From Thermodesulfobium sp. 4217-1 (lineage in GTDB: Bacteria; Thermodesulfobiota; Thermodesulfobiia; Thermodesulfobiales; Thermodesulfobiaceae), in NCBI RefSeq assembly GCF_039822205.1, contig NZ_JBAGBW010000005.1, positions 1-64,000 of the forward strand: a stretch of DNA of 64,000 nt, written 5' to 3'. How positions within the stretch are numbered: the first letter of the stretch is position 1; every line of letters starts with the position of its first letter. The notes below the pieces were generated by a model. It worked only from the letters and a program-made list of their open reading frames with translations, had not been told where the DNA came from and did not search any database. Positions 18,197 to 59,959 of the stretch are shown here, in pieces. The position numbers and the translations under genes are program-made.

Positions 18197-18254
18197 TTGA
18201 CAAAATAAAAAAGATAATATAAACTTATCTTCGAATGTATGAATATAAGTTTAT
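18197..18254 (+). promoter_or_regulatory. promoter with ArsR-type inverted repeat for the Hdr/TusA/DsrE operon
   Basis: A consensus -35 TTGACA (18197-18202) lies 15-17 bases before TATAAA/TAAACT (18218-18225). Overlapping the -10 and running into the leader is an inverted repeat of ATAAACTTAT (18219-18228) and ATAAGTTTAT (18245-18254) with a 16-base spacer. The site sits just before the ArsR-family gene, as expected of an autoregulatory operator that blocks the promoter until the inducer binds the repressor. Confidence 0.65.
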
Positions 18255-18260
18255 GAGGAG

Positions 18261-18647
18261 GTGAAAGAAATTAATTTGTTACAGCTCTTTGAAGCTCATG
18301 CAGAACTTTGCAAAAGCCTTTCTAGTCCAAAAAGGTTGATGATAATAGCTATGCTTTCCGAAGGAGAGGCTAACGTAACTGAAATATCAAAAACAATTGA
18401 TGCCAGACCATCTACGGTTAGCCAGCACTTAGCTATACTTAGATCGCACAATTTAGTTGATACCAGAAAAGAAGGCAAAACTATATTCTATTCACTTTCA
18501 GACAAAAGGTTAGGTGATGCTTGTAGCATTATAAGACAAATCCTTTATGAAACGATGAAAAAACAAGGAAATTTTGCAAAAGAGATGAGTATAGAAAGCA
18601 ATTTCTTATGTTTTAAAACAAAAAATAATCTTAGGAGGCTACCATGA
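18261..18647 (+). CDS. ArsR-family transcriptional regulator of the sulfur operon
   Basis: A winged helix protein: L-S-S-P-K-R-L-M-I-I-A-M-L at the start of the DNA-binding fold, the recognition helix region with R-P-S-T-V-S-Q-H-L-A-I-L, and wing K-E-G-K-T-I-F-Y-S-L. It lacks the ELCVCDL metal-binding motif of arsenic and cadmium sensors. It has cysteines near residues 17 and 88, one each in the first and the late helices, recalling persulfide-sensing ArsR members (BigR, SqrR, sHdrR), though the exact positions differ. It starts at GTG 18261 next to GAGGAG and overlaps tusA by four bases, so it is the first gene of the operon it probably controls. Confidence 0.85.
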   Translation: MKEINLLQLFEAHAELCKSLSSPKRLMIIAMLSEGEANVTEISKTIDARPSTVSQHLAILRSHNLVDTRKEGKTIFYSLSDKRLGDACSIIRQILYETMKKQGNFAKEMSIESNFLCFKTKNNLRRLP

Positions 18648-18895
18648 GTTTAGATTTAAAAAGCTTAAAAGTTGATACATCAGTCGATGCAAGAGGAAGC
18701 GCCTGTCCAGGACCATTACTTGCAGCCAAAAGACAAATCGTCTCTATACCTATTGGAGGAATTATGGAAGTTTTGTCATCCGATGAGGGCACGAATGAGG
18801 ATCTACCTTTATGGGCAGAAAAGGTTGGACATGAATTTTTAGGTGACGTTGAAGAAGCTGGATACTGGAAGCTTTATGTAAAAAGAGGAAAATAA
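18644..18895 (+). CDS. tusA: TusA-family sulfur carrier protein
   Basis: TusA proteins carry sulfur as a cysteine persulfide between enzymes in the cytoplasm. Here the active site V-D-A-R-G-S-A-C-P-G-P-L-L lies near residues 14-26, with the reactive cysteine in the C-P-x-P-like motif C-P-G-P. The rest of the 83-residue chain fits the two-layer alpha/beta fold, including the G-G-I-M-E-V-L strand and a K-L-Y-V-K-R end. Its place in front of Hdr and DsrE genes argues for sulfur trafficking in energy metabolism rather than tRNA thiolation. The start overlaps the ArsR gene by four bases after an AGGAGG site. Confidence 0.95.
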   Translation: MSLDLKSLKVDTSVDARGSACPGPLLAAKRQIVSIPIGGIMEVLSSDEGTNEDLPLWAEKVGHEFLGDVEEAGYWKLYVKRGK

Positions 18896-18896
18896 A

Positions 18897-19286
18897 TTGT
18901 CAAATCCAAAAATCTTAGTTTTTTCAACAAATAATATTTCAGATCCTGGCATTGATCTTGCAGGGGCATCTCACATGGACTATCCAGAATCAGTAAAGAT
19001 CATCACAGTTCCTTGCTCTAGTGGCATAAGTCCAAAATGGATTTTAAATGCCATAAAAGGTGGTTTTGATGGAGTATTTGTAGCTGCTGATGGTACAGAC
19101 TGCCCATATTTAACTGATTGCACTGATAGAACTGCAAAAATAGTTGAAAAGTCTCAAGAACTCCTTAAAGCAAATAATTTAGATCCCAGAAGGATAAAAA
19201 TGGCTGCAATATGCTCAGTTTGTGCCGAATCATTTGTCTCACATATTAAAAAGTTTCACAAAGCATTAAGTGAGTTAAATAACTAA
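18897..19286 (+). CDS. MvhD/FlpD-like iron-sulfur electron-transfer subunit
   Basis: The fold pattern matches the MvhD delta subunit, which passes electrons between a hydrogenase or dehydrogenase and HdrA through a [2Fe-2S] cluster: V-P-C-S-S-G-I-S-P near residue 39, G-G-F-D-G-V-F-V-A near 58, T-D-C-P-Y near 68, and L-D-P-R-R-I-K near 100. The cysteines differ from the usual set: the G-C-x-x-G-D-C-H-Y loop is A-D-G-T-D-C-P-Y-L-T-D-C, and the S-A-A-E end is I-C-S-V-C-A-E. Five cysteines remain, so a cluster is possible but rearranged. The start is TTG 18897 after AGAGGA, two bases past tusA. Confidence 0.82.
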   Translation: MSNPKILVFSTNNISDPGIDLAGASHMDYPESVKIITVPCSSGISPKWILNAIKGGFDGVFVAADGTDCPYLTDCTDRTAKIVEKSQELLKANNLDPRRIKMAAICSVCAESFVSHIKKFHKALSELNN

Positions 19287-19299
19287 CTATAAGGAGCAA

Positions 19300-21888
19300 A
19301 TGGTGAGTGACTATAAAAAATTCGATGCATTAGTTGTAGGTGGGGGAATTGCAGGGATGGAATCATCCATCTTGCTTGGCGACATGGGTTTTAAAGTGCT
19401 TCTTGTAGAAAAAGAATCCAGTATTGGCGGCAAGATGATATTACTTAGCAAAGTATTTCCTACCCTTGACTGTTCAAGCTGCATATCTACGCCAAAAATG
19501 GCTGCTACTGCTGCTCATAATAATATTACCGTGTTAAATTATAGCGAGGTAGAGGAAATAAAGAAAAAAGAGGATTCGTTTACTGCTAAAATTCTTAAAA
19601 AAGCGTCTTTTGTAGATCCTGCTAAATGCACTGGCTGCGGCCAGTGCGAGCTTGCATGCACTGTTCCCCTGCTCGATCAATTTAATTGCGACTTGATTCC
19701 CAGGAGAGCAGCATACATTGCATTTCCTCAAGCAGTTCCAAAAAAAGCTGTAATAGAAAAATTTGGAACATCTCCTTGTACTTTTGTATGCCCTGTTGGC
19801 GTAAAGGCTCACGGATTGGTTTCACTGTCAAGATCTGGAAAATTTGAAGAAGCATATAGCTTGCATCTTGAAGATTCGCCGATGGTCGGAACTCTCAGTA
19901 GAATCTGTTCTGCGCCATGCGAAAAGAGATGCACAAGAAACCAGTTAGAAGGTTCTATTCCTATTCGAAACATAAAAAGATACATAGCAGACAAGCACTT
20001 TGAAAGCTTCCCTACACCTCAGAAAAAAGAACCAAAGAATATATTAGATAAGAAAATTGCAATTGTAGGCTCTGGTCCATCAGGATTGAGCGCAGCGTAT
20101 TATCTTACCAAAAAAGGTTACAAAGTAACTATCTTCGAATCCTCTGATAAATTAGGCGGAAAGCTTCAACTAATACCAGACTATCTACTGCCAAAATATC
20201 TCTTAGACAGAGATATCGAAGAGATAACTTCATATCAAAATATCGAAGTAAAACTAAATACTACAGTATCTTCCTTAGGGAAACTAAAAGATGATGGATT
20301 TGAAGCAGTTTTATTATCGACTGGAACCTGCTATGACAAGGGTGAATATCCTGATGTCCTAAAGCAAAAAAATGCTATAGATGCAATATCATTTTTGCAA
20401 AACAAAGAAAACCATGAATCTCTTAATTCTAAAAACGTAGTTGTATTTGGTGGAAACAATATTGCTATGCACTGTGCCAGAATAGCGCTCAGACACAAGG
20501 CAAATGTTTCAATACATTTTGAAAAAGACAGGATTGATATGAGCGCTTCAAAGAAAGAAATTGACGATACTGTAAACGAAGGGGCAAAATTAGTCCTAAA
20601 TTCACAGCTCGACAAGTTAGAGAATGCAGATTTCATAATTTACTCAATCGATCCAAAGCCTGACTTGTCTATCTTAAAGGGGTCTGAATTAGAGTCAAGC
20701 TCATTGAAGGTAAACGAATTCCAACAAACTCAAATTCCGTGGATATTTGCTTGTGGAGATGTAACAAGCGGACACTCAAACATTCTTAAAGCTATTTCAA
20801 CATCTAAAAAGGCTGCATTTTATGTAGATCTATTTTTAAATAATACAGATCTACATTCGGAGAAATTTGATGACAGACTCCCCGCCGTAAAACCAAATGA
20901 GATAAAAGAACGTTACAATTCAAGTTTCCCAAAACATATGCAATTTTTACCACATCTGAGACCAGACAAGCTCAGTCTTGAAGAAATAGAGCAAACCATA
21001 TCTGAAGAAGAGGTAAAAAAGTACGCCACAGGCTGCTTAGATTGTGGTGGATGCAGCGAATGTCACCAATGCGTAAACATTTGCCCTGCAAACGCTATAG
21101 ATTTCTCGATTAGACCTGTAAACTACGAAATAGAAGTGGATACCGTAATTGTATCCACAGGATTCAAGCTGTTTGACGCAAGCAAAAAAGAAATATTTGG
21201 ATTCGGTAGATTTCCAAACGTCATAGATGCAATGCAGATAGACAGAATACTCGCCCCAACCAGGCCGTATAACGCTGTTATAAGGCCATCAGACGGTAAG
21301 GTTCCCTCAAATATTGCTATGATACTGTGCGTAGGCTCTCGTGATAAAAAGGTAAACAACAATATTTGCTCCAGAGTTTGTTGTATGTATTCGCTAAAAC
21401 AGGCCCAGCTTATTATGGGAGCGCTACCTGTTGCCGATCTGACAATATATTACATTGATATAAGAGCTTTCGGCAAGGGATATGAAGAATTTTATCATCA
21501 GGCCAAAGAAATGGGCATCAGATTTGTAAAGGGGAAGGTTGCAAGAATTGAAGAAGATGAAGAGAGCAATCTAAATCTATTTTACGAGGATATCGAGGAA
21601 GATGGTCAGGTAAAAATTGCAAATCACGATATGGTAATATTATCAGTCGGCTTACTGTCAAACACATCAGCTTTTGAGCCATTCAAGGATTTAAAACTAG
21701 ACTCAGACGAACATATGTTTGTAAAAGAAGTGGACGAAAACATAGAACCAGCAAAAACCTCGATAGATGGAATATTTGTCGCAGGAACATCAACCGCTAT
21801 AAAAGATATCCCCGATTCGGTCCTTCATGCCGGAGCTGCTGCGGCACAAGCAGCCGGATATATTTCAAAAAAGAGGAGGGGGCTATGA
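19300..21888 (+). CDS. HdrA fused to a GltD/NfnB-like NAD(P)H-binding module
   Basis: An 862-residue flavoprotein of composite design. Residues 1-122 are HdrA: FAD loop G-G-G-I-A-G at 14-19, D-C-S-S-C-I-S-T-P-K-M near 58, and cluster cysteines C-T-G-C-G-Q-C near 110. Residues about 155-540 are an inserted GltD-type unit: C-P-V-G-V, I-C-S-A-P-C-E, then a second dinucleotide loop G-S-G-P-S-G at 257-262 and a closing A-C-G-D-V. Residues 560-862 return to HdrA, with C-L-D-C-G-G-C-S-E-C near 579, C-V-G-S-R-D and C-S-R-V-C-C. GltD modules bind NAD(P)H and FAD, so the protein should link the Hdr complex to pyridine nucleotides. ATG 19300 follows AAGGAG. Confidence 0.92.
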   Translation: MVSDYKKFDALVVGGGIAGMESSILLGDMGFKVLLVEKESSIGGKMILLSKVFPTLDCSSCISTPKMAATAAHNNITVLNYSEVEEIKKKEDSFTAKILKKASFVDPAKCTGCGQCELACTVPLLDQFNCDLIPRRAAYIAFPQAVPKKAVIEKFGTSPCTFVCPVGVKAHGLVSLSRSGKFEEAYSLHLEDSPMVGTLSRICSAPCEKRCTRNQLEGSIPIRNIKRYIADKHFESFPTPQKKEPKNILDKKIAIVGSGPSGLSAAYYLTKKGYKVTIFESSDKLGGKLQLIPDYLLPKYLLDRDIEEITSYQNIEVKLNTTVSSLGKLKDDGFEAVLLSTGTCYDKGEYPDVLKQKNAIDAISFLQNKENHESLNSKNVVVFGGNNIAMHCARIALRHKANVSIHFEKDRIDMSASKKEIDDTVNEGAKLVLNSQLDKLENADFIIYSIDPKPDLSILKGSELESSSLKVNEFQQTQIPWIFACGDVTSGHSNILKAISTSKKAAFYVDLFLNNTDLHSEKFDDRLPAVKPNEIKERYNSSFPKHMQFLPHLRPDKLSLEEIEQTISEEEVKKYATGCLDCGGCSECHQCVNICPANAIDFSIRPVNYEIEVDTVIVSTGFKLFDASKKEIFGFGRFPNVIDAMQIDRILAPTRPYNAVIRPSDGKVPSNIAMILCVGSRDKKVNNNICSRVCCMYSLKQAQLIMGALPVADLTIYYIDIRAFGKGYEEFYHQAKEMGIRFVKGKVARIEEDEESNLNLFYEDIEEDGQVKIANHDMVILSVGLLSNTSAFEPFKDLKLDSDEHMFVKEVDENIEPAKTSIDGIFVAGTSTAIKDIPDSVLHAGAAAAQAAGYISKKRRGL

Positions 21889-23612
21889 GCGATAAAATTG
21901 GCGTTTTTGTTTGTTATTGCGGAGGAAATATATCTGACTTTGTGGATGTAGAAAAGGTAAAGGATACAATTTCGGGTGAAGAAGGCGTAGCATTCGCTAA
22001 AACGAATATGTTCACCTGTTCTGATAGCGCTCAAACAGAAATGATAAACGCTATAAAAGAAAAGAATCTTGATGGAATTGTAATAGCATCATGCTCGCCA
22101 AAACTACACTTAAAAACATTTCAAAATATGGCACAAAGAGCAGGACTTAACCCATATCAGTATACTCAGGTAAATATCAGAGAGCAATGCTCATGGGCAC
22201 ACACCCACAACAAAGAAGCTGCCACTGAAAAAGCAATAGATTTAGTCAGAGCAGGTATAGCGAAGACCAGAAACTCAATCCCCCTTACTCCGTTAAGAGT
22301 AAATACTGTAAATCAAGCCCTAATAATAGGAGGCGGCATATCTGGACTAAGGTGTGCTTTAGCGCTATCTGAAATGGGAATTTTTGCTCACGTAGTAGAG
22401 AAAGAATCGAAAATAGGCGGAAATCTAAACGATATAGGAATGGTCTTCCCAGACAAGAAAAACGGTTATGAGCTAATAGACGCCCTTGCAAAAGAAATTA
22501 AAAAGAGAGACAACATAAACATTTACACAAATGCAAAATTAACAAAAAAACAAGGCAGTGTTGGTAATTTTGAATGCGATATAGTTTCTGGAAACGAGAA
22601 ATTAACTCTAAATGTTGGTTCAATAATTTTGACAACTGGATTTAAACCTTATACTCCAGAACCCAATGAGTTTGGTTATGGACATCCTAATGTAATAACA
22701 TTGGTGGATTTTAAGAAATTATTATCAAATAATTCTAAAAAAGGCGAATTAATCTTTAACGGTCAAAGAGTTAGAGAGATAGCCTATGTTTACTGTGTTG
22801 GGTCGAGGGAAAGCACTAAGGAAGATGGAAATAAGTATTGCTCCAGATATTGCTGCAGCGCTGCCAATTATACGTCTCTTTTAGCTTTTGATATCGATCC
22901 TAAATTGAAGCAATACCACATTTATAGAGATATTAGAACCTATGGCAAATACGAGGAATATTATGAAGAAAACCTTAGGCGCGGCGCATTATTCTTTAAA
23001 TATGATGAAGAAAGTCCGCCAGATATCAGCTCCAAAGGTGAAAGAATAAAGATATTGGTAAAAGATAGGCTTATAGCAAAAGATGATATTCTAATCCCCT
23101 GCGACTTGTTAGTTTTAGTAAATGGCATGGTAGCGAATGAAAACGCAGAGCTAAACAATATTCTAAAAACTCCAATTGGTAAAGATAAATTTTATAATGA
23201 AATACATCCAAAATTAAGACCAGTGGAAACTGTAATAGACGGTATATTCATAGCAGGAACGTCACAGGGACCGAAAAATATCTCAGAAAGCGTAGCAAGC
23301 TCGATGGCTGCTGCATCAAAAACAGCATCTCTTCTCATTAAGGGCTATGTAGACATTGAACCAACAATTGCACATGTAATAGAAGAAAAATGCACAGGTT
23401 GCAAACTTTGTGAACACTCATGCCCATACGAAGCAATATCTTTTGTAAGCAAAAACGATAAAGCAATTGCAGATATAAACCCAGCTATTTGTAAAGGATG
23501 CGGTGGCTGTGTTCCAGATTGCCCCGAAGACGCTCTCGAAGTTCTTGGCTACACACACTCTCAAATAAATTCTATGATAGATTCTATGCTTTTGGAGGCA
23601 AAAGAATGCTAA
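21885..23612 (+). CDS. hdrA: HdrA-like FAD/iron-sulfur protein
   Basis: A 575-residue HdrA of the canonical kind. The N-terminal domain opens with V-F-V-C-Y-C-G-G-N-I and includes S-C-S-P-K-L-H near 70. The FAD loop I-I-G-G-G-I-S-G is near residue 147, with C-V-G-S-R-E and Y-C-S-R-Y-C-C near 305-325, and a G-I-F-I-A-G-T end motif. The C-terminus has two ferredoxin clusters, C-T-G-C-K-L-C-E-H-S-C-P and C-K-G-C-G-G-C-V-P-D-C-P. HdrA carries the bifurcating flavin in heterodisulfide reductase complexes. It overlaps the HdrA-GltD gene by four bases (ATGA), so the two HdrA forms are made together. Confidence 0.93.
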   Translation: MSDKIGVFVCYCGGNISDFVDVEKVKDTISGEEGVAFAKTNMFTCSDSAQTEMINAIKEKNLDGIVIASCSPKLHLKTFQNMAQRAGLNPYQYTQVNIREQCSWAHTHNKEAATEKAIDLVRAGIAKTRNSIPLTPLRVNTVNQALIIGGGISGLRCALALSEMGIFAHVVEKESKIGGNLNDIGMVFPDKKNGYELIDALAKEIKKRDNINIYTNAKLTKKQGSVGNFECDIVSGNEKLTLNVGSIILTTGFKPYTPEPNEFGYGHPNVITLVDFKKLLSNNSKKGELIFNGQRVREIAYVYCVGSRESTKEDGNKYCSRYCCSAANYTSLLAFDIDPKLKQYHIYRDIRTYGKYEEYYEENLRRGALFFKYDEESPPDISSKGERIKILVKDRLIAKDDILIPCDLLVLVNGMVANENAELNNILKTPIGKDKFYNEIHPKLRPVETVIDGIFIAGTSQGPKNISESVASSMAAASKTASLLIKGYVDIEPTIAHVIEEKCTGCKLCEHSCPYEAISFVSKNDKAIADINPAICKGCGGCVPDCPEDALEVLGYTHSQINSMIDSMLLEAKEC

Positions 23613-23848
23613 AAAAATTTATTAGGCCACCATTACAAGTTATCAAGAGCGAAATGTATTTTCATGAAAAAATAGCCTCTTTACTTAAAAATGAGCCCAA
23701 AACAATCCCAGAACTCTCACAAGAGCTAAATGTACCCAGCTACGAAGTCACTATGCACCTAATGGCAATGAGAAGATACAATCTTGTGGAAGAGCTTCCG
23801 AAAAAGAGACGAGATGATTACTATAAATACGCTCTCAAGGAGAAATAA
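23606..23848 (+). CDS. small winged-helix DNA-binding-like protein
   Basis: An 80-residue protein with a helix-turn-helix core: I-A-S-L-L-K-N-E-P-K-T-I-P-E-L-S-Q-E-L, then V-P-S-Y-E-V-T-M-H-L-M-A-M as recognition helix, and a short basic wing P-K-K-R-R-D-D-Y-Y-K-Y. It starts at ATG 23606, seven bases inside the end of hdrA, with GGAGG upstream. Its place between hdrA and hdrC, tightly coupled, argues for a role tied to the complex. It may be a second regulator or a structural subunit that borrowed the fold. I do not recognise a named family. Confidence 0.75.
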   Translation: MLKKFIRPPLQVIKSEMYFHEKIASLLKNEPKTIPELSQELNVPSYEVTMHLMAMRRYNLVEELPKKRRDDYYKYALKEK

Positions 23849-23849
23849 T

Positions 23850-24152
23850 ATGATAAAAGTCAATTCTGGATTAATAGATAAAATTAAAATAGATGAAAAT
23901 TTTAACGCATCGGCATGTTTTAATTGCGGGACTTGCTCGGCACTGTGCCCAGTAGGTTTTGATATTTTACCCAGAAAACTCTTTAGATATGTTCTTTTGG
24001 GCGATGAAGAGAAAATTCTTGAGAGCACAGATCAGATATTTTCATGCCTTTTGTGTAGGATGTGTGAAGAGCAGTGCCCCCATGAAGTAAACATAACAGA
24101 AAATATAAGGCTAATCAGAAGCTATCTTGCTAAAAGCAAGCTGGGAGTGTGA
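23850..24152 (+). CDS. hdrC: HdrC-like iron-sulfur subunit
   Basis: A 100-residue protein with two [4Fe-4S] ligand sets of the HdrC type: C-F-N-C-G-T-C-S-A-L-C-P near residue 24 and C-L-L-C-R-M-C-E-E-Q-C-P near 66. HdrC relays electrons between HdrA and HdrB in the cytoplasm. The start ATG 23850 is one base after the stop of the winged-helix gene; an earlier in-frame codon inside that gene has no ribosome site. The hdrB-like gene follows after four bases. Confidence 0.9.
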   Translation: MIKVNSGLIDKIKIDENFNASACFNCGTCSALCPVGFDILPRKLFRYVLLGDEEKILESTDQIFSCLLCRMCEEQCPHEVNITENIRLIRSYLAKSKLGV

Positions 24153-24156
24153 AAAA

Positions 24157-25119
24157 ATGAGCAAAGTAGGAGCTGTCTTAGGAATTTTAAATGATAACTT
24201 TGAAAAGAGAAAAACCGTATTTAGCGTTTCTAAAGAAAGTCTAACCTCATGGGCAAAAGATTTAAACATAAAGAAGGGCACAGAAACAATAATCTACACA
24301 GGTCACATGTATCAACTGATGCCTATCACAAAGTCTGCAACTTCTATATATGAAAACTTTGAAGAATCATCCCTGATGAACTTTGCACCAGTAGGCAGAT
24401 TTATTAACAAATTTGTTGACCTCTCTTCAATGTCAAAATATGCAGCAAAGCCCGAGAAGAAAGAAGAAGAAAGATTTAACAAGTGCCTACAAAATATTTA
24501 TCAACTTTTAAAGTATGCTGGAGTAGAAGCAGGATATCTATATGAAGATGAGCTCTATGTCGGGACCCTTCTATATGACAACGGCATAGATGAACCGCTG
24601 ATCAATCAAGCTAAAATACTAAATAAAATTCTTAAAAATAACTTCGTTAAAAATATTATTACAGTTGACCCGCATACCACACACATGCTAAGAAAAGTTT
24701 ATAAAAAAATTCTGCCAGAATTTGATTATAACGTAAAAAATTATATTGAAGTATTATTCGAGAAGAAAATTAAACCACAAAACAAGCTAAATATGACATT
24801 AGCTATCCACGATTCGTGTGTATTGGCCAGATATGAAGAGGTTATCGAGGAGCCAAGAAATCTTTTAAAAAATGCAGGAGTAGACTGTGTAGAGCCAGAA
24901 CTTTCAAGAAAGCTCACCCACTGTTGCGGTGGCCCAATTGAGTCCCTCTTTCCAAAAAAGGCAAAAGAAATTGCGTCAAAAAGAGCAAACGATTTGCTAT
25001 CCTGTTCAAACGTAGTAACTACGATGTGTCCAATTTGCTTATTAAACCTAAAAGAAAGCACTCCTGCAAAGGATAATTTCCTGGATCTGTCTGAAATCTT
25101 AGTGAAGGCCTATCTATAG
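24157..25119 (+). CDS. HdrB-like CCG-domain protein with one degenerate CCG domain
   Basis: HdrB-type proteins hold catalytic iron-sulfur clusters between two cysteine-rich CCG domains. Here the second domain is intact: D-S-C near residue 219, T-H-C-C-G-G-P near 252, and T-M-C-P-I-C near 292. The first domain keeps the shape (Y-T-G-H-M-Y near 46, D-E-L-Y-V-G-T-L-L near 130, V-D-P-H-T-T near 170), but each cysteine expected there is replaced. Thus only one cluster of the non-cubane type should form. The start ATG 24157 is four bases after hdrC. At 320 residues it is near normal length. The substrate is unknown; a sulfur-carrier persulfide is an attractive guess. Confidence 0.82.
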   Translation: MSKVGAVLGILNDNFEKRKTVFSVSKESLTSWAKDLNIKKGTETIIYTGHMYQLMPITKSATSIYENFEESSLMNFAPVGRFINKFVDLSSMSKYAAKPEKKEEERFNKCLQNIYQLLKYAGVEAGYLYEDELYVGTLLYDNGIDEPLINQAKILNKILKNNFVKNIITVDPHTTHMLRKVYKKILPEFDYNVKNYIEVLFEKKIKPQNKLNMTLAIHDSCVLARYEEVIEEPRNLLKNAGVDCVEPELSRKLTHCCGGPIESLFPKKAKEIASKRANDLLSCSNVVTTMCPICLLNLKESTPAKDNFLDLSEILVKAYL

Positions 25120-25142
25120 AAATCATAAAATGGAGGGGAAAA

Positions 25143-25505
25143 ATGGCTAAAAAGGCGTTCATTACCCTTACGTCGGGTCCTGATAATCCTGAGAAAGTTA
25201 TAGGTGCTTTCATTATGTCAAACGCTGCTTTTGCAATGGACTATGAAGTTACTATGTGGCTCCAAAGCGGAGGAGTTTTTACAGCAGTCAAGGGTATGTT
25301 TGAAAGGATTATGTATAAAGATTATGATCCATTAGAAATTTATGTAAAAAATTTTATAGAACAAGGCGGTAAATTTTATTTATGTGTTTGTGCAAGTAAA
25401 GCCAGAAACATAACTGAAAAAGATCTTGTTAGTAATGCACAAATAGTTGGAGCAGGAAGAGCAATGTTAGACATATCAGAGTCAGACTTAGTAATGTTTT
25501 ATTGA
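25143..25505 (+). CDS. DsrE-family protein (divergent copy)
   Basis: A 120-residue DsrE/DsrF-like protein: an N-terminal strand then T-S-G-P-D-N-P-E-K, the helix M-S-N-A-A-F-A-M-D, and a C-terminal segment F-Y-L-C-V-C-A-S-K-A-R-N-I. DsrE proteins bind persulfide sulfur at a cysteine near residue 80 and swap it with TusA. This copy has C-V-C-A where its two neighbours have C-I-P-C-C, and is the most different of the three. It follows the hdrB-like gene by 23 bases, with GGAGGG upstream of ATG. Confidence 0.88.
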   Translation: MAKKAFITLTSGPDNPEKVIGAFIMSNAAFAMDYEVTMWLQSGGVFTAVKGMFERIMYKDYDPLEIYVKNFIEQGGKFYLCVCASKARNITEKDLVSNAQIVGAGRAMLDISESDLVMFY

Positions 25506-25537
25506 TTGTCAATCCAAAAATTTAATCGGAGGAAGAA

Positions 25538-25900
25538 ATGAGTGAAAAACTTGTAATTACCCTATCTTCTGGACCAGAAAATCCCGAAAAAGCTACACTC
25601 GCTTATGTAATGGCCAATGCAGCCCTTGCGATGGACGCTGAGGTATTAATGGTTCTCCAATCAAACGGTGTATACACTGTAACGAAGGGCACATACGAAC
25701 ACATAAAAGCTCCAGGACACGATCCGATAAAAAAGCACGTAGAAACCTTTCTTTCGAATGGCGGGAAATTCTATGTTTGCATCCCTTGTTGCCAAGAAAG
25801 AGATATCTCTCAAGATCAAATACTTGAAGGGTGCGAAATGGCAAAGTCCGGCAAGGCAGTAAAAGCTATATTGGAAGCAAAAACCACATTAAACTACTAA
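25538..25900 (+). CDS. DsrE-family protein, copy 2
   Basis: A 120-residue DsrE-like protein with the motif C-I-P-C-C-Q-E-R-D-I near residue 80, three cysteines in five residues that could hold persulfide. The opening S-S-G-P-E-N-P-E-K and the helix A-N-A-A-L-A-M-D are as in its neighbours. It is about three-quarters identical to copy 3 by eye, including a 57-base stretch with no change, which suggests recent duplication or gene conversion. Its ribosome site is GGAGG ahead of ATG 25538. Confidence 0.9.
   Translation: MSEKLVITLSSGPENPEKATLAYVMANAALAMDAEVLMVLQSNGVYTVTKGTYEHIKAPGHDPIKKHVETFLSNGGKFYVCIPCCQERDISQDQILEGCEMAKSGKAVKAILEAKTTLNY
25592..25648 (+). repeat. 57-bp stretch identical to 26014-26070 in the next dsrE copy
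   Basis: Bases 25592-25648 and 26014-26070 are identical, starting GCTACACTCGC and ending GGTATTA, at an offset of 422 bases. A second conserved block, K-A-P-G-H-D-P-I-K-K-H-V-E-T-F, follows with only a few silent changes. The pattern fits recent tandem duplication or ongoing gene conversion. Confidence 0.9.
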
Positions 25901-25959
25901 AATCTAAAATAATATTTTCATAACAAGATTCGAAATTAAATTAAGGAGAAAAATTCAAA

Positions 25960-26322
25960 ATGAGCGAAAAATTGATAGTTGTATCAACAACGGGACCAGA
26001 AGATCCTGAAAAGGCTACACTCGCTTATGTAATGGCCAATGCAGCCCTTGCGATGGACGCTGAGGTATTAGTTTGCCTTCAGGCAAGTGGAGTATACACT
26101 GTAACAAAGGGCACATACGAACACATAAAAGCTCCAGGACACGATCCAATAAAAAAGCACGTGGAGACCTTTCTTTCGAATGGCGGAAAGATATTCCTTT
26201 GTATACCTTGTTGCGAGGAGAGAAATATTACAAAAGAAATGATAGTTGATGGCTGCGAGCTCACAAAAGCAGGGAAAGCCATTAAAGAAATATTGGAAGC
26301 AAATTCAGTATTAAATTATTAA
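25960..26322 (+). CDS. DsrE-family protein, copy 3
   Basis: The third 120-residue DsrE-like protein, with C-I-P-C-C-E-E-R-N-I near residue 80. It differs from copy 2 mainly at residues 32-38, where M-V-L-Q-S-N-G becomes V-C-L-Q-A-S-G and gains a cysteine, and in the last 30 residues. It is the last gene of the operon and ends seven bases before a strong terminator. DsrE proteins usually act as multimers; the two close copies could form mixed assemblies with the divergent first copy, much as DsrE, DsrF and DsrH do. That is inference. Confidence 0.9.
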   Translation: MSEKLIVVSTTGPEDPEKATLAYVMANAALAMDAEVLVCLQASGVYTVTKGTYEHIKAPGHDPIKKHVETFLSNGGKIFLCIPCCEERNITKEMIVDGCELTKAGKAIKEILEANSVLNY

Positions 26323-26328
26323 CTTATA

Positions 26329-26371
26329 GAGCCCCGTATCTAAAAAATAATTTTAGATACGGGGCTCTTTT
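26329..26371 (+). terminator. strong rho-independent terminator of the Hdr/DsrE operon
   Basis: A perfect 17-bp stem (26329-26345 with 26351-26367) and a five-base loop AATAA, followed by TTTT. It ends the plus-strand operon and sits between convergent genes, so it may also stop transcription from the Fe-ADH gene on the minus strand, though the T-run on that side is weak. Confidence 0.95.
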
Positions 26372-52499: not shown

Positions 52500-53138
52500 T
52501 TAAGATAGGGTGCTAAAAAAAGTTTTTTCCTTTTCTAAGAATCTTTTACACAATGTGGCAAAGTGTTTATAAAAAGATTCTTCCAACTTACGAGATATTT
52601 CTTCAAAAAATATATGAGCCCAATTTAAAATAAATCTGTTAAAAAAGTTTTTTTCATAAAGCAGAGCACTATTTTTATCCTTACTTTCTGAGACAATTAA
52701 AATAGACATAAATGCGCAGATTATAGAAATATGGTCGCTTCTATGAATGCTAGAAAAATCTATCCCATAATTACCATATATAGTGTTCAGCTCCTCTGGC
52801 AATGAGTAAAATTCGTTATTATCCCGAAATTCCTTATAACTAATATAAGCGCTTGCAAAGGGTGGAATAAAATAATTCGCAACAGGTATCACAAAAGACA
52901 TTTCGAATATCTGATTTAATCTCGACATTTCTTTTTCGTCACCCAGAGCAAGCAATATGTGATTCATACATTTCTCAGAAGTATTTTTATCTTCTAAATA
53001 CTCTCCAAGAAAATCCCATAACTCTAAACTTGATAGTCTGTTACAAAGTTCTTTATCAGGATTAAGTATAAAAATATCAGAGATAATATTGTATATAGTT
53101 TTTCTTTCAAGGTTAAAGTCATCGAGGTTGTTTATCAA
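52500..53138 (-). CDS. TorD/DmsD-family molybdoenzyme chaperone
   Basis: A 212-residue all-helical protein. TorD-family proteins bind the Tat signal and the unfolded catalytic subunit until the molybdenum cofactor is inserted. Seen here are the weakly conserved N-terminal R-K-T-I-Y-N-I-I-S-D-I-F, P-F-A-S-A-Y-I-S near 105 (the family has a P-P-D-H/Y-x-S-x-E type loop here), and F-I-L-N-W-A-H-I-F-F near 170. Its place four bases after the catalytic subunit is what makes the call firm. Sequence identity within this family is always low. Confidence 0.82.
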   Translation of the reverse strand: MINNLDDFNLERKTIYNIISDIFILNPDKELCNRLSSLELWDFLGEYLEDKNTSEKCMNHILLALGDEKEMSRLNQIFEMSFVIPVANYFIPPFASAYISYKEFRDNNEFYSLPEELNTIYGNYGIDFSSIHRSDHISIICAFMSILIVSESKDKNSALLYEKNFFNRFILNWAHIFFEEISRKLEESFYKHFATLCKRFLEKEKTFFSTLS

Positions 53139-53142
53139 TTAC

Positions 53143-56100
53143 TTATACCTTTTCAATCTTTACAGGAGTATCATAATAAACCATACCGCCCGCAACATCG
53201 CTTTGAAGTACCGTGGTCCATCCATCTTTTGCCGCTATAGAAGGATCTAAGAGCATCAAGTGGTTTGGATGAATGCCTGCATTTCTTGCCGGATCTCCAA
53301 CATATTTTTTACCGTCGATATACCATTCTCCAGAACCATAAAGCCATCTTCCAAAAGCTTGAGAATAAGTAATTACTCCCGGCCTAAGTGCAAATTTTAT
53401 TCTCACCCTGCAAACAATACCCTTTGAGTAGGAAGGAGAGATCAGTCTTACGGTATCTCCATTATCTAATTTTAATTTTTTTGCGTCAACCTCACTTATC
53501 TCAAGGAAGTTTCCAGGCAACAGCTCTAACAACCACGGATCTGAAATAGTCCTCGACTTTGAATGTATAGGAACCTTGTAAGTAGAAAGCATAAATGGAT
53601 ATTCTTTCCTTGAGTAAATCTCATATATAGGCTGTCCCATCATATTCTTTGGCGGCTCAAGTCTCACACATCCATCGAATCGTTCTCCAGTAATAGCGTT
53701 GTGTGTAACCGCGACCGTTTCGTTGTAGAGTTCAATGACATTTTTGCTGTTGCCCAGCCTGTGTGTTACCCATTCGGGTTCACCAAATGGCAGATATCCA
53801 ACATCATAATCTTCATAGCGTCCGCCTCTGGCTAATACATAAGCAGCCTTTTTCCATTCATTTCCCTTCAAAGCATTTGGATATTTTTTCATATATTCTT
53901 CAACGCTTTTCATATCATAGGCATCCCCATCAGGAACGGGTCCTTGTTTTACAATCTTGTTACCATCAAGCTTTAATAGGGTCTTGTCATCCATTCCTAT
54001 GTTTACCAACATCTTTAAATAATACTCTTCACGAATAGTCAGCTGAGAACCGTCCAAAAAGGCGTTCTTACCAAAGCCTGGCAAACCAATTTTTATCGCA
54101 AGATCTATTAAGAAGTTTTCCATTGTAATAGGCTTACCATCTTTGGTCTTCTCTGTTATGGGCTCAATTACAGGCTGTCTTACAGATATTCTTGAAGTAG
54201 GATATGTTGGAAATCCTGGCAGCATACCCCATGTTTCCAAATACGTTGCATCAGGAATTATGTAATCGGCATAGCTAGAGCTCTCAGCTATGACAATATC
54301 GCTTGCAATAAACAATGGTACTTTATTTAAATCTTTTATCATCCTTATCCACATCAAAGACTCATCATCAGCTCCGCCCATACCTGGCTGTGCCCATGCA
54401 GGGTTTGCCATGTGCTGAAAGAGTATCTTTACAGGGTATGGATACTGGAAATAAGTTCCACCCCATATCTCATGCCATATCCCAAATCCGAATGGAAACC
54501 ATGGTCTTTCAGCAGGAAAGGGATTGCCGCCATTTTCAGACCTCTTCTTGTATTCACTCGTTTTCTCGTAAAAGCTGCCCTCTCTCGAAATTTTTACGCC
54601 CTTTGGCGCAACAAAATTCGGCCATTTCGCAAGGTCGTATGGGCCATTCATATAATTTGCTGAAGGAGCGCCATTGATATAGCCTCCCTTCCAGTCAATG
54701 TTCCCTATCAGGACATTTAGAAGCATGACAGCCCTTGCATTGTAATAGCCATTTGCATGCATTGCTGCACCCCTATATATATCAGCAACAGCCTTTCTTC
54801 CATGTGAAGTAAATTCATCTGCAAGTTTTATAAAGGTCTCTTTTGAAATGCCGCATTCTTTTTGATATTCATCATAACTGTGTGATGAAACTTCTTGCCA
54901 TAGATATTGCATAGCCGTCATACACTGCACACCATTTACCGTCACAGGTTCAAGAGACAAATATCCTGTAGGCCACAAGTTAGCTTTCGTGCAATCAGAT
55001 GCCTTAGTTGGAGAGCCAGATTGTTTATCTATGACCATACCCTTGTCTACAAAAGCACCATAATTTGGATTGCCCTTATCAACTATGACCAAATAACTTG
55101 AATTAGAAAAGTTTGGTTCTCCCTGCTTTGTGGCTGCATCAAAATTAGGAACTTCTAAGTATTTTTCGTTATACCTTTTATTTTCTATAATCCATCTAAT
55201 CATCCCCATTGCAAAAGCACCGTCGCCGCCAGGTTTTATAGGCACAAAATCAGCATGTGATATTTGATTACCTCCTGTTGGGTCAATATATACTACCTTT
55301 TTCCCGCTTGACGTGGCCTCAGCAGATCTTCTTGCCAGAGTTTGCATCGGAAAGTTAGCCTGATAATAATTAGAGCCAAAAACTAAAACCAACTCACAAT
55401 TTGGCTGATCAGGCTTTAGCATGTTAGAGGGAACTACTGAATGGGTCGCCACATGGTGCGTCAGCTCACAAACAGCAACGTGAGGCAGGGAGTTTACAGA
55501 CCCAAAGGCATTTGCGAACCTGGTAATGAAGTTATTTTGCCCGCCTTCAGCCCTACCCCAATAGGCCACAAATTGATTAGTTTTTGGACCAAAATCAGGA
55601 TATTGTTCATTTGCTGGCACAAATCTATTTTTACCATCGTTCCAGAGCTGTTTAAAACCTTCCACAAATCTATTCTCTTCACCTGGGACATCTTTAAACA
55701 GATAGCCGCCATTGTAAATTTCATCAAGCAATTGTTCATAAGATATTGTTTTAAATTTTTTTGAACCCCTTGGTCCAACTCTTTTCAATGGTTTGTATAT
55801 CCTATAAGGATCGTAAACAGTCTGCCTGCCAGCCTGTCCTCTTGCACACAGCGAGTGCGAGCCGTTTGCATAAGGTTTAGATGTGTCAAAGGTAGAACCC
55901 ACATACATAATAGCCTCTTTTGGTGAATCAGAGTATTTAATTTGAGGTTCTGTATCGTGAATGTCATAAGGGCTACCGTCTAACTTTAATATTGTACCCT
56001 TATACACTCTTGCCATCAGAGCACAATCGCTGTGACACTGTTTACATGTTGAGAACTTTACCTCAACTCCTGGCCAATTCTCTACTCGACCCGGATAAAT

Positions 56101-56220
56101 CAGCTTACCATCATACCCAAAATATCTAGGCAGATCTTGCTGACTCGCTCCCACACCGACTCCAGCAGCACAAACTCCAAATGTCAAATACTTTAAGAAA
56201 TCTCTTCTATTCATGTTCAT
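53143..56220 (-). CDS. Tat-exported molybdopterin oxidoreductase, tetrathionate/polysulfide reductase-like
   Basis: A 1025-residue catalytic subunit of the DMSO reductase family. The Tat signal N-R-R-D-F-L-K opens the chain. A [4Fe-4S] cluster is bound by C-K-Q-C-H-S-D-C near 58 and C-A-R-G-Q near 125. The metal ligand is probably the cysteine in V-A-V-C-E-L-T-H-H near 254. The length, Cys ligand and neighbours fit tetrathionate reductase TtrA or related sulfur/arsenate reductases; the exact substrate (tetrathionate, thiosulfate, polysulfide or arsenate) cannot be told. The enzyme faces the periplasm and takes electrons from the FeS and NrfD subunits. Start ATG 56220 follows AGGTGG. Confidence 0.88.
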   Translation of the reverse strand: MNMNRRDFLKYLTFGVCAAGVGVGASQQDLPRYFGYDGKLIYPGRVENWPGVEVKFSTCKQCHSDCALMARVYKGTILKLDGSPYDIHDTEPQIKYSDSPKEAIMYVGSTFDTSKPYANGSHSLCARGQAGRQTVYDPYRIYKPLKRVGPRGSKKFKTISYEQLLDEIYNGGYLFKDVPGEENRFVEGFKQLWNDGKNRFVPANEQYPDFGPKTNQFVAYWGRAEGGQNNFITRFANAFGSVNSLPHVAVCELTHHVATHSVVPSNMLKPDQPNCELVLVFGSNYYQANFPMQTLARRSAEATSSGKKVVYIDPTGGNQISHADFVPIKPGGDGAFAMGMIRWIIENKRYNEKYLEVPNFDAATKQGEPNFSNSSYLVIVDKGNPNYGAFVDKGMVIDKQSGSPTKASDCTKANLWPTGYLSLEPVTVNGVQCMTAMQYLWQEVSSHSYDEYQKECGISKETFIKLADEFTSHGRKAVADIYRGAAMHANGYYNARAVMLLNVLIGNIDWKGGYINGAPSANYMNGPYDLAKWPNFVAPKGVKISREGSFYEKTSEYKKRSENGGNPFPAERPWFPFGFGIWHEIWGGTYFQYPYPVKILFQHMANPAWAQPGMGGADDESLMWIRMIKDLNKVPLFIASDIVIAESSSYADYIIPDATYLETWGMLPGFPTYPTSRISVRQPVIEPITEKTKDGKPITMENFLIDLAIKIGLPGFGKNAFLDGSQLTIREEYYLKMLVNIGMDDKTLLKLDGNKIVKQGPVPDGDAYDMKSVEEYMKKYPNALKGNEWKKAAYVLARGGRYEDYDVGYLPFGEPEWVTHRLGNSKNVIELYNETVAVTHNAITGERFDGCVRLEPPKNMMGQPIYEIYSRKEYPFMLSTYKVPIHSKSRTISDPWLLELLPGNFLEISEVDAKKLKLDNGDTVRLISPSYSKGIVCRVRIKFALRPGVITYSQAFGRWLYGSGEWYIDGKKYVGDPARNAGIHPNHLMLLDPSIAAKDGWTTVLQSDVAGGMVYYDTPVKIEKV

Positions 56221-56232
56221 ATTAAACCACCT

Positions 56233-57411
56233 TTAATTGTCTACTGAATTTGTTTGATTTTCAAAGCCATTCTTATTCGAATCTTCCCAACCAAACAGCC
56301 ATCCAAGGATAAAAAATATTACTATTGACAAACAAATCAAGCCAATTGAAGATAATATTCCATCAAAACCAAGCCATGGAAATTCAGGAATAATGGTACC
56401 TTGAGAAATCTTCGGTAGTAGCTGTCCGCCTATGACTGTATTGAACCTCATTGCGAAAACTCCTACCTGAACAAATATTGAGATTATTACCATCATAAGC
56501 TTAGACGTCCTTACGGGTTTAAATATCAACAAGATAAGCGGTATTATTAGACCAAGAAGTATTTGAACGACAAAGTAATTAAAGAACAAAACACCACCTG
56601 CATTATAAACCAAAGTCCAACCGTGGAATACGTCTGCTTCGGTGTATGCCCTAAATGAATAAAGTTTATCAATAAAATCTAAAAACAAATCAAATGCAAT
56701 TGCAAATATCATAAATATTCCCAAGGCATTTAGCGTTTCTATATTTACAACGTTTTTCTTAGAGTAATATGAATATCCAATGACATAAAGCAAGGTAACA
56801 AGAGCTGCGCCTGAGACAATGGCAGAGGTTATAAACATAAGCATCATAACAGAACTTGTCCACAAAGCCCTGGCTTTTATAGCGCCAAATACAAAACCAA
56901 TGTATCCGTGAAAAGCGAATGCGAGAGGAACGCCTATTGCAGAGATTATAAAAAGAGCCTTTCTGTCTTTTAACAGAGATTCTTTTGAAATATTATTGTT
57001 GCCAAAAGTCAAAAACCTTGCTATAGACCCCCTAATACCGCTTAGCTTGGATTTCTCAATATTTTCGACCCTATAGTCAAAGTACATTTCAAAAAACATT
57101 AATATTACATACAGTGTCCATATTATTATAAACACACTCAGTGGAGAATATGGAAAGTGATCTCTAAAATAAAGTTCCAATGGCGCTTTTGCTGGTTGCA
57201 AACTATCTACCAATGGGGCAAGAGCAGCTATCAAAACCATAGCAAAGCTTGAGGTAGCAGCTAACTTCGCAACTGGCTCAAACTGTTTAAACCCAAATAG
57301 GTGGGCAAGAGAGTCAATTACAAAGGCCCCAGCCATCAAACCCGACAAAAATGGGTAGATAACTATTGGCAGTCCCCAAATTGCAGTTTCTAAAAATTGT
57401 CCTCCTAGCAT
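56233..57411 (-). CDS. NrfD/PsrC-type membrane quinol subunit
   Basis: A 392-residue integral membrane protein with about nine spans, of the NrfD/PsrC/TtrC kind, which oxidises menaquinol and passes electrons to the FeS subunit. Y-P-F-L-S-G-L-M-A-G-A-F-V near residue 20 and the acidic and histidine residues in the middle spans (H-G-Y-I-G-F near 170, D-V-F-H-G-W near 260) match the family. The start ATG has AGGAGG. Gene order FeS-NrfD-catalytic-TorD is the standard one for tetrathionate and related reductases. Confidence 0.9.
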   Translation of the reverse strand: MLGGQFLETAIWGLPIVIYPFLSGLMAGAFVIDSLAHLFGFKQFEPVAKLAATSSFAMVLIAALAPLVDSLQPAKAPLELYFRDHFPYSPLSVFIIIWTLYVILMFFEMYFDYRVENIEKSKLSGIRGSIARFLTFGNNNISKESLLKDRKALFIISAIGVPLAFAFHGYIGFVFGAIKARALWTSSVMMLMFITSAIVSGAALVTLLYVIGYSYYSKKNVVNIETLNALGIFMIFAIAFDLFLDFIDKLYSFRAYTEADVFHGWTLVYNAGGVLFFNYFVVQILLGLIIPLILLIFKPVRTSKLMMVIISIFVQVGVFAMRFNTVIGGQLLPKISQGTIIPEFPWLGFDGILSSIGLICLSIVIFFILGWLFGWEDSNKNGFENQTNSVDN

Positions 57412-57420
57412 AACTTCCTC

Positions 57421-58506
57421 CTATTTTTCGAATTCTTTAAACGGATTCTTGTGCTCTTCAATTTTTGGCAAATCAACTTCACCGCCAAGCTTTTTATAAG
57501 CTGTAGTATTAAAACCTATAGTGTATGTATATTCCATAAAAACCTTGTCCATACTCGTATTACCCTCAAGATTTCCGTTCAGATCAATATAAAAGACTTG
57601 AGGCTCTGTCCCCTGAGACATTTTTAATCTGGCAGTAGGGTACTGGCTAATAAGCCTGGACACTTCGCTCTTTGGATCGTTTAAATCACCAAAAATTCTT
57701 GCCCTGCCCACGCAGCTGGTAACGCATGCCGGCTCAAGACCTGCATCAATTCTATGAACGCACAAAGTACACTTATCAGCAGTTTTTGTAACAGGATTAA
57801 AAAATCTCATATTATATGGACATGCCTCTATACAAGTGCCGCACCCAATACACTTTTCATAGTCTACTAGAACTATTCCGTCTTGCCTCTTAAAAGTTGC
57901 TTTTACAGGACAGGCCTCCACACAGGGTGGTTCATCACAGTGATTGCAAAGCCTAGGGAGCATAAATTTCTTAACATTAGGTTCATAGTTTCCATCATCT
58001 GTAACAACCATACCGTTTGGGGAGCTTTCCATTGAACCAGTTTCCATTACTTGCACAACCGTCCTGAACACCCCTAATGGGACGTTGTTCTCACTCTTAC
58101 AAGCAATTACACAGGCCTGGCAACCCACGCACTTTCTAGTATCAATTACCATTACCCAGTGGTGTTTTGGTTTAGTTTTGTCAATTTCGTGAAAATTGTC
58201 ATACCAAACAGGTAAATTTTTGGGATTTAATAACTTATCCCAATCATTCCAGCCATCTTTGTCATCAAGAACGGGATTTTCCCATCCCATCCATCTGTGA
58301 TTATTAATTGGACCGGTAGGCAAATTAGCATTATTTTTTTCTGCAGCATCTGCGCTATCTGATGAATTGAGTATACTTAAAGCAAATAGACCACCCAGAC
58401 CCAATGCGATGCTTTTGACCAACCAAGACATAAAATTAGCTGATAGACGTTCTTGGTTAGCATCGTCATCTGCTTCTTTTAACGAAAAATCGCTGCGGTA
58501 GCTCAC
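57421..58506 (-). CDS. four-cluster ferredoxin subunit with N-terminal membrane anchor
   Basis: A 361-residue electron-transfer subunit of the TtrB/DmsB type. Four [4Fe-4S] ligand sets are seen: C-V-G-C-Q-A-C near 128, C-N-H-C-D-E-P-P-C near 185, C-I-G-C-G-T-C near 217, and C-T-L-C-V-H-R near 244. An N-terminal hydrophobic helix at about 26-46 without twin arginines likely anchors it to the periplasmic face. I use GTG 58506, six bases after GGGAGGTG; a TTG at 58521 lies before that site. First gene of the operon. Confidence 0.88.
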   Translation of the reverse strand: MSYRSDFSLKEADDDANQERLSANFMSWLVKSIALGLGGLFALSILNSSDSADAAEKNNANLPTGPINNHRWMGWENPVLDDKDGWNDWDKLLNPKNLPVWYDNFHEIDKTKPKHHWVMVIDTRKCVGCQACVIACKSENNVPLGVFRTVVQVMETGSMESSPNGMVVTDDGNYEPNVKKFMLPRLCNHCDEPPCVEACPVKATFKRQDGIVLVDYEKCIGCGTCIEACPYNMRFFNPVTKTADKCTLCVHRIDAGLEPACVTSCVGRARIFGDLNDPKSEVSRLISQYPTARLKMSQGTEPQVFYIDLNGNLEGNTSMDKVFMEYTYTIGFNTTAYKKLGGEVDLPKIEEHKNPFKEFEK

Positions 58507-58556
58507 ATAAACACCTCCCAATAAAAATTAATAGAAAATGAAAAGTTCATAATTAT

Positions 58557-59281: not shown

Positions 59282-59959
59282 CTATGCTAATATTTCATTT
59301 TTGATGGCATCTATACCTAGTCTCTCTACGAATCGGGCGACTCGCTCGCTCATACCATATCTTCCTTCTACTTTATAATCGCCTTTTTCTTTGTAGAGGT
59401 TTAGGAATTTTTTTATGATGTCCAGAACTTGATCGTCGCTAAGCTCGTCTGCTACAATATCTCCAATTCTGGGTTTTCTGCCAGAGTTTCCGCCAATTAC
59501 CAAAACCCAACCTTTTCCTCCCGAGAAGACTCCTATGTCTCTAATAAAAGCCTCGCCGCAATTTAGAGTACATCCTGATATACCAATTTTTAATTTTGCA
59601 GGAACTTTTTCAAAATATACAAGGTCTTCAATCTTCTTCCCCAGACTAAGGCTGTCAAGAGTCCCATATTTGCAAGTAGTGTTGCCAACACATGCCTGAA
59701 CGTAGTGAAGTGAAGGCTCTACGTTGAAGCCCATATCGTTTGTAAGCTCTTCTATTATCTTGTTCACGTTTTCTGGTTGAATCCCAATCAAGAAAAATCT
59801 CTGACCAGTTAAGATCTTTAACTGGCGTACATTGTATTTCTTTGCAATTTTTGCAACTTCTTCTAAATACTCAGGCGTAACCAGCCCAGTCGTAGACTTT
59901 AATTTTATAGCATAACTGCCGTCTCTTTGCTCTATCGCTCTTGGATGTATCTGTCCCAT
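59282..59959 (-). CDS. low-molecular-weight siroheme sulfite/nitrite reductase-like protein
   Basis: A 225-residue protein with a single copy of the sulfite/nitrite reductase ferredoxin-like half domain and the siroheme-[4Fe-4S] ligands: C-V-G-N-T-T-C-K-Y-G near residue 91 and S-G-C-T-L-N-C-G-E-A near 130. L-T-G-Q-R-F-F-L-I-G near 50 matches substrate-side strands. Size and single-domain form fit the small assimilatory-type sulfite reductase of Desulfovibrio (aSir). No extra ferredoxin domain is present. It probably reduces sulfite or nitrite, with electrons from ferredoxin; which one cannot be told. AGGAGG lies upstream. Confidence 0.88.
   Translation of the reverse strand: MGQIHPRAIEQRDGSYAIKLKSTTGLVTPEYLEEVAKIAKKYNVRQLKILTGQRFFLIGIQPENVNKIIEELTNDMGFNVEPSLHYVQACVGNTTCKYGTLDSLSLGKKIEDLVYFEKVPAKLKIGISGCTLNCGEAFIRDIGVFSGGKGWVLVIGGNSGRKPRIGDIVADELSDDQVLDIIKKFLNLYKEKGDYKVEGRYGMSERVARFVERLGIDAIKNEILA

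Follow-up and report, generated by a model that had tools for sequence, protein, structure and literature searches.

What role could an operon play that places sulfur carrier proteins among the subunits of an Hdr-type complex? The question arises from Thermodesulfobium sp. 4217-1, a sulfate-reducing hot-spring bacterium with a genome of 2.0 Mb. The window analyzed here, meaning the whole stretch of 64,000 nucleotides at the start of contig NZ_JBAGBW010000005.1, carries eleven genes on the plus strand (positions 18261–26322), separated by intergenic gaps of −7 to +59 bases. In 5′ to 3′ direction, they encode ArsR, TusA, an MvhD-like protein, HdrA with an inserted GltD module (HdrA/GltD), a second HdrA, a winged-helix protein (wHTH), HdrC, an HdrB-like protein with a single CCG site, and three DsrE proteins. 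Searches against Pfam and NCBIfam supported ArsR, TusA, FlpD/MvhD, HdrA + GltD (PRK12771, Fer4_20) + HdrA, HdrA, winged helix, HdrC, CCG and DsrE, and the third DsrE was recognized via its similarity to DsrE2. Thus, both types of sulfur carrier and the Hdr-type parts listed in the initial annotation of this DNA are indeed present. We give an even chance to the explanation that persulfide on TusA and DsrE exchanges electrons with a Qmo/HdrL-like complex encoded by the operon, reduction to sulfide being likelier than oxidation. To our knowledge, many anaerobes reduce elemental sulfur without any known cytoplasmic enzyme for protein-bound sulfur. A module that is conserved, free of Dsr and joins TusA/DsrE to an Hdr complex offers a specific gene marker and an enzyme amenable to testing.

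Conserved gene order and independence of DsrAB

The comparison within the genus comprised the host and three relatives (four species); beyond the genus, the nearest relatives are found only at the level of the same domain. All four species possess the operon. Three DsrE genes, as annotated initially, occur in three of the species, that of the window among them, but the fourth has only two. In a sample of 386 genomes across bacteria, strong HdrA/GltD matches were confined to six: the four of the genus and two genomes, G123 and G289, from two unrelated families. A profile of the MvhD variant gave strong matches in the same six of the 386 genomes, and two further matches were far weaker. G123 and G289 share the block DsrE-TusA-MvhD-HdrA/GltD-HdrA-wHTH-HdrC-HdrB in identical order at ~50% identity, and an ArsR gene lies upstream of it in G289. 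The fusion was found in four of the seven genomes of the family of G123, in which a second genus keeps the order with one gene inserted. In G386, HdrA/GltD and HdrA are separated by an extra gene (L058:4712-5263) for a protein of 184 amino acids (aa) without a Pfam match.

A scan of named genomes revealed the core, at ~44% identity, in Petrimonas, Proteiniphilum, other Bacteroidota and a spirochaete metagenome-assembled genome; 9 of the 101 genomes in the family of Petrimonas carry it. The Bacteroidota and spirochaete version consists of TusA-MvhD-HdrA/GltD-HdrA, with the wHTH domain fused to HdrA and a QmoC-like membrane protein replacing HdrC and HdrB. Outside the genus, no usable locus departed from the order TusA-MvhD-HdrA/GltD-HdrA, indicating that the arrangement is more than chance. 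The search for co-occurrence and conserved gene order that the initial annotation had suggested thus returned the same block, in the same order, from unrelated genomes. Uniqueness of the set is not supported: HdrA/GltD fusions are known as HdrL (PMC2702500), and the full set is present in other genomes. In a tree with few reference sequences, all HdrA/GltD fusions formed one clade and all partner HdrA proteins another, and the same split between Bacteroidota and spirochaete appeared in both. The matching splits suggest that the two proteins were inherited jointly.

We also looked for dsrA. Among the genomes tested, it occurs only in the genus of the window (four of four species). It is absent from all 13 tested genomes outside the genus, several of which are incomplete drafts; 11 of the 13 carry the module, among them the complete genome of Petrimonas sp. 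IBARAKI. We conclude that the module is independent of DsrAB and that its product is not routed through DsrAB in these organisms.

Two neighborhoods outside the genus contained additional redox genes. The cluster of G289 (L042:1005-5058) continues into NuoF-, NuoE- and NuoG-like genes, the NuoG-like one having a GcvH domain that seemingly lacks the lipoyl lysine. The family of G123 (L060:5338-8733) encodes a second, long HdrA/GltD protein (HdrL-like, ~1140 aa) with MvhD-like and NuoG/NuoF-like genes nearby.

The Hdr core, its probable exchangeable arm and the sulfur carriers

The MvhD-like protein is rearranged, as first noted from the sequence. The usual N-terminal CxxC is lost, and the protein instead has a new cysteine, C75, and an ICSVC pair (C106, C109) that is invariant in all six MvhD-variant sequences compared. 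The HdrA/GltD protein, which starts at the FAD domain, does contain both modules of the proposed fusion. However, GltD (residues ~154–510) is inserted within HdrA (~1–150 and 579–862), between the two Fe-S motifs of the latter, rather than simply fused to it. The second HdrA comprises an N-terminal domain, the FAD domain and two C-terminal [4Fe-4S] motifs, without the inserted ferredoxin of methanogen HdrA.

The GltD modules differ in their NAD(P) sites. In all four species of the genus, the site is degenerate: GGNNIA replaces GGGNxA (the third glycine is lost), YRR is missing, and so are ~28 residues of the NAD(P) domain, whereas the Fe-S and FAD motifs of GltD are retained. The Bacteroidota modules have GGGNTA and YRR in the NAD(P) domain, and YRR accompanies NADPH use in DsrL-2 (PMC7596348). 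With the motifs degenerate in one group and intact in the other, the previously proposed NAD(P)H link via GltD appears doubtful in the genus of the window and likely in Bacteroidota. That one genus has lost the site points to a change of electron donor in the course of evolution.

A role of the wHTH protein as a separate regulator is not supported. It is homologous to the C-terminal domain of the partner HdrA in Bacteroidota and the spirochaete and thus most probably belongs to the structure of the complex. A function as DNA-binding regulator was rejected because of this fusion to HdrA elsewhere.

The HdrB-like protein has the predicted single CCG site. Its second site is intact (C221, C256-C257, C291, C294), the first contains no cysteines, and all five HdrB-like proteins aligned have one intact site. 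HdrB is absent from the clusters of Bacteroidota and the spirochaete, in which the QmoC-like replacement combines an HdrC-like Fe-S portion and a membrane portion in a single protein. HdrCB and QmoC arms also alternate in Qmo systems, where QmoAB-HdrCB is listed among the known arrangements (PMC6397845). As the two arms interchange, the arm probably serves to exchange electrons, and the shared core is the likelier place of the sulfur site, a localization aided by this natural swap. Since HdrB is not universal, it cannot be the general sulfur site, and persulfide chemistry at the HdrB-like protein, as originally envisaged, does not hold as a general mechanism.

The cysteines of the carriers are intact, both in the CPGP motif of TusA and at the active-site position of all three DsrE proteins. 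DsrE2 and DsrE3 are near-duplicates, and the DsrE copy number varies from one to three across the clusters. Certain segments shared by dsrE2 and dsrE3 are 92–100% identical within a species, whereas the same segments differ by 5–22% between species (two of two species compared), which points to likely ongoing gene conversion. We rejected an assignment to the DsrEFH trio, in which DsrE, DsrF and DsrH form a heteromer that has a single active cysteine, because of the near-duplication, the variable copy number and the retention of the cysteine in all copies.

A putative persulfide-converting complex and competing explanations

The gene set, its conserved order, the motifs and the independence of Dsr in the relatives are established by these data. 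The recurrence of the block in unrelated anaerobes that do not have the sulfite reductase of sulfate reducers suggests that the operon encodes a so far undescribed apparatus that handles protein-bound sulfur on its own. We propose a cytoplasmic Hdr-type complex that would be dedicated to protein-bound sulfane sulfur. The core would comprise the MvhD variant, HdrA/GltD and HdrA together with the winged-helix component, following the QmoAB/HdrL pattern, and would receive TusA-borne persulfide, passed on by or to the DsrE proteins. The arm would tie this core to the electron pool, by HdrC and the single-CCG HdrB in the host and the two other families and by the QmoC-like membrane cytochrome in the Bacteroidota and spirochaete version. 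Most likely, the complex would on balance draw electrons from a reduced carrier and convert persulfide sulfur into sulfide. This donor might be NADPH or quinol in Bacteroidota; in the genus of the window it is not obviously NAD(P)H and could be ferredoxin or a dithiol acting through HdrCB. ArsR would probably repress the operon until its ligand appears. We thus infer one physical complex in which TusA and DsrE carry the substrate, the sulfur chemistry takes place at the MvhD/HdrA core, and the direction is reductive. A bolder version, which we advance tentatively, is a Dsr-independent sulfane-sulfur reductase of several anaerobe phyla: a flavin-based, possibly electron-bifurcating HdrL-HdrA-MvhD complex that would use TusA/DsrE persulfide as the substrate, carry interchangeable HdrCB and QmoC arms, and serve elemental sulfur respiration or disposal.

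The reductive direction is favored by Petrimonas, a fermenter that reduces elemental sulfur (PMC9695182); oxidation of the sHdr type is the main rival. Several points weigh against the proposed complex, however. The NAD(P) site is degenerate in the very genus of the window, the tie between the cluster and sulfur reduction in Petrimonas rests on one genus, and AlphaFold2 models, computed from sequences of the window and related loci, of HdrA/GltD (predicted local distance difference test (pLDDT) 59.8, predicted template modeling score (pTM) 0.40) and of the HdrB-like protein (pLDDT 33) were too poor to use. Oxidative sHdr clusters, too, characteristically contain TusA, DsrE3A-type proteins and ArsR regulators. 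Moreover, cultivated Thermodesulfobium, described as a distinct phylum-level lineage, has been reported to utilize sulfate or thiosulfate, with no elemental-sulfur use stated (PMC8539903).

In an sHdr-like oxidation, TusA/DsrE persulfide would be converted to sulfite, and quinone, NAD(P)+ or a disulfide would accept the electrons, for instance when thiosulfate or sulfur is disproportionated. Such a process would fit the ArsR regulator, the TusA and DsrE3A-type proteins adjoining the Hdr genes in Bacteroidota, and the Cloacimonadota, whose Hdr genes with TusA have been read as sulfur oxidation (PMC8542988). We nevertheless regard it as unlikely, given that the HdrC1B1A-Hyp-C2B2 set and an adjacent LbpA-like gene are missing, that the carriers of the module include anaerobic fermenters without dsrA, and that the NADPH-type YRR motif of Bacteroidota fits a donor role better. 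Alternatively, the persulfide could dock on HdrB and be reduced at its CCG cluster with NAD(P)H electrons delivered by HdrA/GltD. CCG proteins cleave disulfides in Hdr systems, and the CCG site is intact in every HdrB-like protein aligned; yet the version without HdrB and the degenerate NAD(P) pocket in the genus of the window leave this mechanism a rather small probability. A further possibility is an accessory role in the reduction of sulfate or thiosulfate, in which the cluster would supply DsrC/DsrAB with sulfur or electrons. The dsrA gene is present in each of the four species of the genus, and DsrE and TusA pass sulfur to DsrC in other bacteria (PMC13293266), but the cluster is kept in genomes without dsrA, and the dsrA gene of the host resides apart from the operon on contig C2. 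We consider this role improbable.

Operon signals, host context and relation to known systems

The features of the operon are compiled in Table 1. The eleven unidirectional genes, the promoter-like site and the perfect terminator are present as initially described. The match of the upstream promoter is in itself not above chance: at the same threshold, 26 promoter-like sites were found versus 26.7 in shuffled sequences, that is, no enrichment. As such matches are common by chance in AT-rich DNA, conservation within the genus is the better evidence for the promoter. The inverted repeat next to it is a plausible ArsR operator. Its exact 10-bp arms start at 18219 and 18245, its core TTCGAATGTnnGAAT is retained in the sister species, and the repeat is partly conserved across the genus. 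The closest solved relatives of the ArsR protein are 6o8l and related entries, which we take to be SqrR. Persulfide sensing via the dithiol pair of SqrR/BigR was rejected since the first cysteine position is occupied by alanine; three cysteines are conserved in the genus.

Table 1. Features of the eleven-gene operon and its flanking signals (window positions)
Feature	Position	Strand	Basis or remark
Sigma-70-like promoter, TTGACA-17-TAAACT	18197..18225	+	score 10/12; aligned and kept in other species of the genus
Candidate ArsR operator, ATAAACTTATcTTC-N8-GAAtATAAGTTTAT, arms match 13/14	18219..18254	.	covers −10 and the stretch just downstream
ArsR/SmtB-family regulator, 128 aa, GTG start	18261..18647	+	domain search
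TusA sulfur carrier, 83 aa, CPGP motif intact	18644..18895	+	domain search, alignment
Variant MvhD/FlpD, 129 aa, TTG start	18897..19286	+	domain search, profile
HdrA with inserted GltD, 862 aa, short HdrL-like	19300..21888	+	domain search, motif mapping
HdrA, 575 aa	21885..23612	+	domain search
Winged-helix domain protein (wHTH), 80 aa	23606..23848	+	domain search, alignment
HdrC-like 2[4Fe-4S] protein, 100 aa	23850..24152	+	domain search, alignment
HdrB-like protein, 320 aa	24157..25119	+	domain search, cysteine mapping
DsrE1, 120 aa, active-site-position Cys (YLCVC)	25143..25505	+	missing in one species of the genus
DsrE2, 120 aa, active-site-position Cys (YVCIPCC)	25538..25900	+	domain search, alignment
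DsrE3, 120 aa, active-site-position Cys (FLCIPCC)	25960..26322	+	similarity to DsrE2; converted segments in common
Intrinsic terminator, perfect 17-bp stem	26328..26368	+	sequence scan

Elsewhere in the host genome, Sat, AprBA and QmoABC are encoded together on contig C12, as read from the sequence, and HdrABC-MvhDGA is present as well. Thus, those roles do not require the operon, and a function as electron donor to Apr was rejected in view of the host's own QmoABC. A second TusA gene (L035:2474-3875) directly precedes a cysteine desulfurase-like gene and probably encodes the housekeeping sulfur carrier of the genome. Within the window, an operon ~26 kb from the Hdr genes (52506–58521) encodes a TtrA/PhsA-like molybdoenzyme, an NrfD-type membrane protein, an Fe-S subunit and a TorD-like chaperone, likely forming a tetrathionate or thiosulfate reductase. 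At 59288–59959 lies a gene for a small NirB-related protein of 224 aa that resembles siroheme sulfite/nitrite reductases and stands alone; comparable short open reading frames are present at other places in the genome (C8, C2) and in the relatives.

The initial annotation had placed the operon close to sHdr and Qmo without equating it with either, and our comparison agrees. It resembles sHdr in combining Hdr proteins with an ArsR regulator and with linked carriers of the TusA and DsrE types. It differs in having one HdrC, one HdrB with a single CCG site, two HdrA and no hyp gene instead of the hdrC1-B1-A-hyp-C2-B2 set, and in the GltD insertion; no LbpA-like gene lies beside the cluster, and the only GcvH-family gene of the genome is on contig C14. 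As in Qmo, two HdrA-type subunits are combined with an MvhD domain and a QmoC-like membrane arm or HdrCB. The partners, however, are TusA/DsrE rather than AprAB/Sat, and QmoA/B of the host fell outside both HdrA clades of the operon in the tree (few references, moderate support). The YTD cluster and DsrEFH type II likewise unite TusA and DsrE genes in sulfur-cycle anaerobes, but the YTD cluster has no Hdr (PMC12998232; PMC13293266), whereas the operon has Hdr genes in place of yedE and no fixed DsrE trio. DsrL is a further GltD-family Fe-S flavoprotein of sulfur metabolism and has YRR in common with the Bacteroidota copies; here, GltD is inserted in HdrA, lacks a DsrAB partner and has lost its NAD(P) site in the genus of the window.

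The open-access literature searched contained no description of this gene set, nor of HdrA, GltD and TusA together, in line with the earlier claim that the exact set had not been described. The fusion itself has been known since 2009, when it was named HdrL in Desulfobacterium autotrophicum, where it occurs with MvhD and DsrABC or FdhAB (PMC2702500); HdrL was described again in 2025 in Desulfurivibrio dismutans (PMC12142623). Both forms have the GltD module within HdrA and an adjacent MvhD, and HdrL-like proteins were the sister group of the operon fusions in our small tree. The HdrL-like relatives, however, are 1132–1145 aa long and include the N-terminal domain of HdrA as well as ferredoxins at the C-terminus, all of which are absent from the operon form, and HdrL was described without TusA/DsrE, whereas the operon form is accompanied by TusA, a second HdrA and DsrE. 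As two defining features of sHdr and both the linkage and the tree position of Qmo are missing, the operon is best called a new variant beside HdrL, Qmo and sHdr that presumably works like them.

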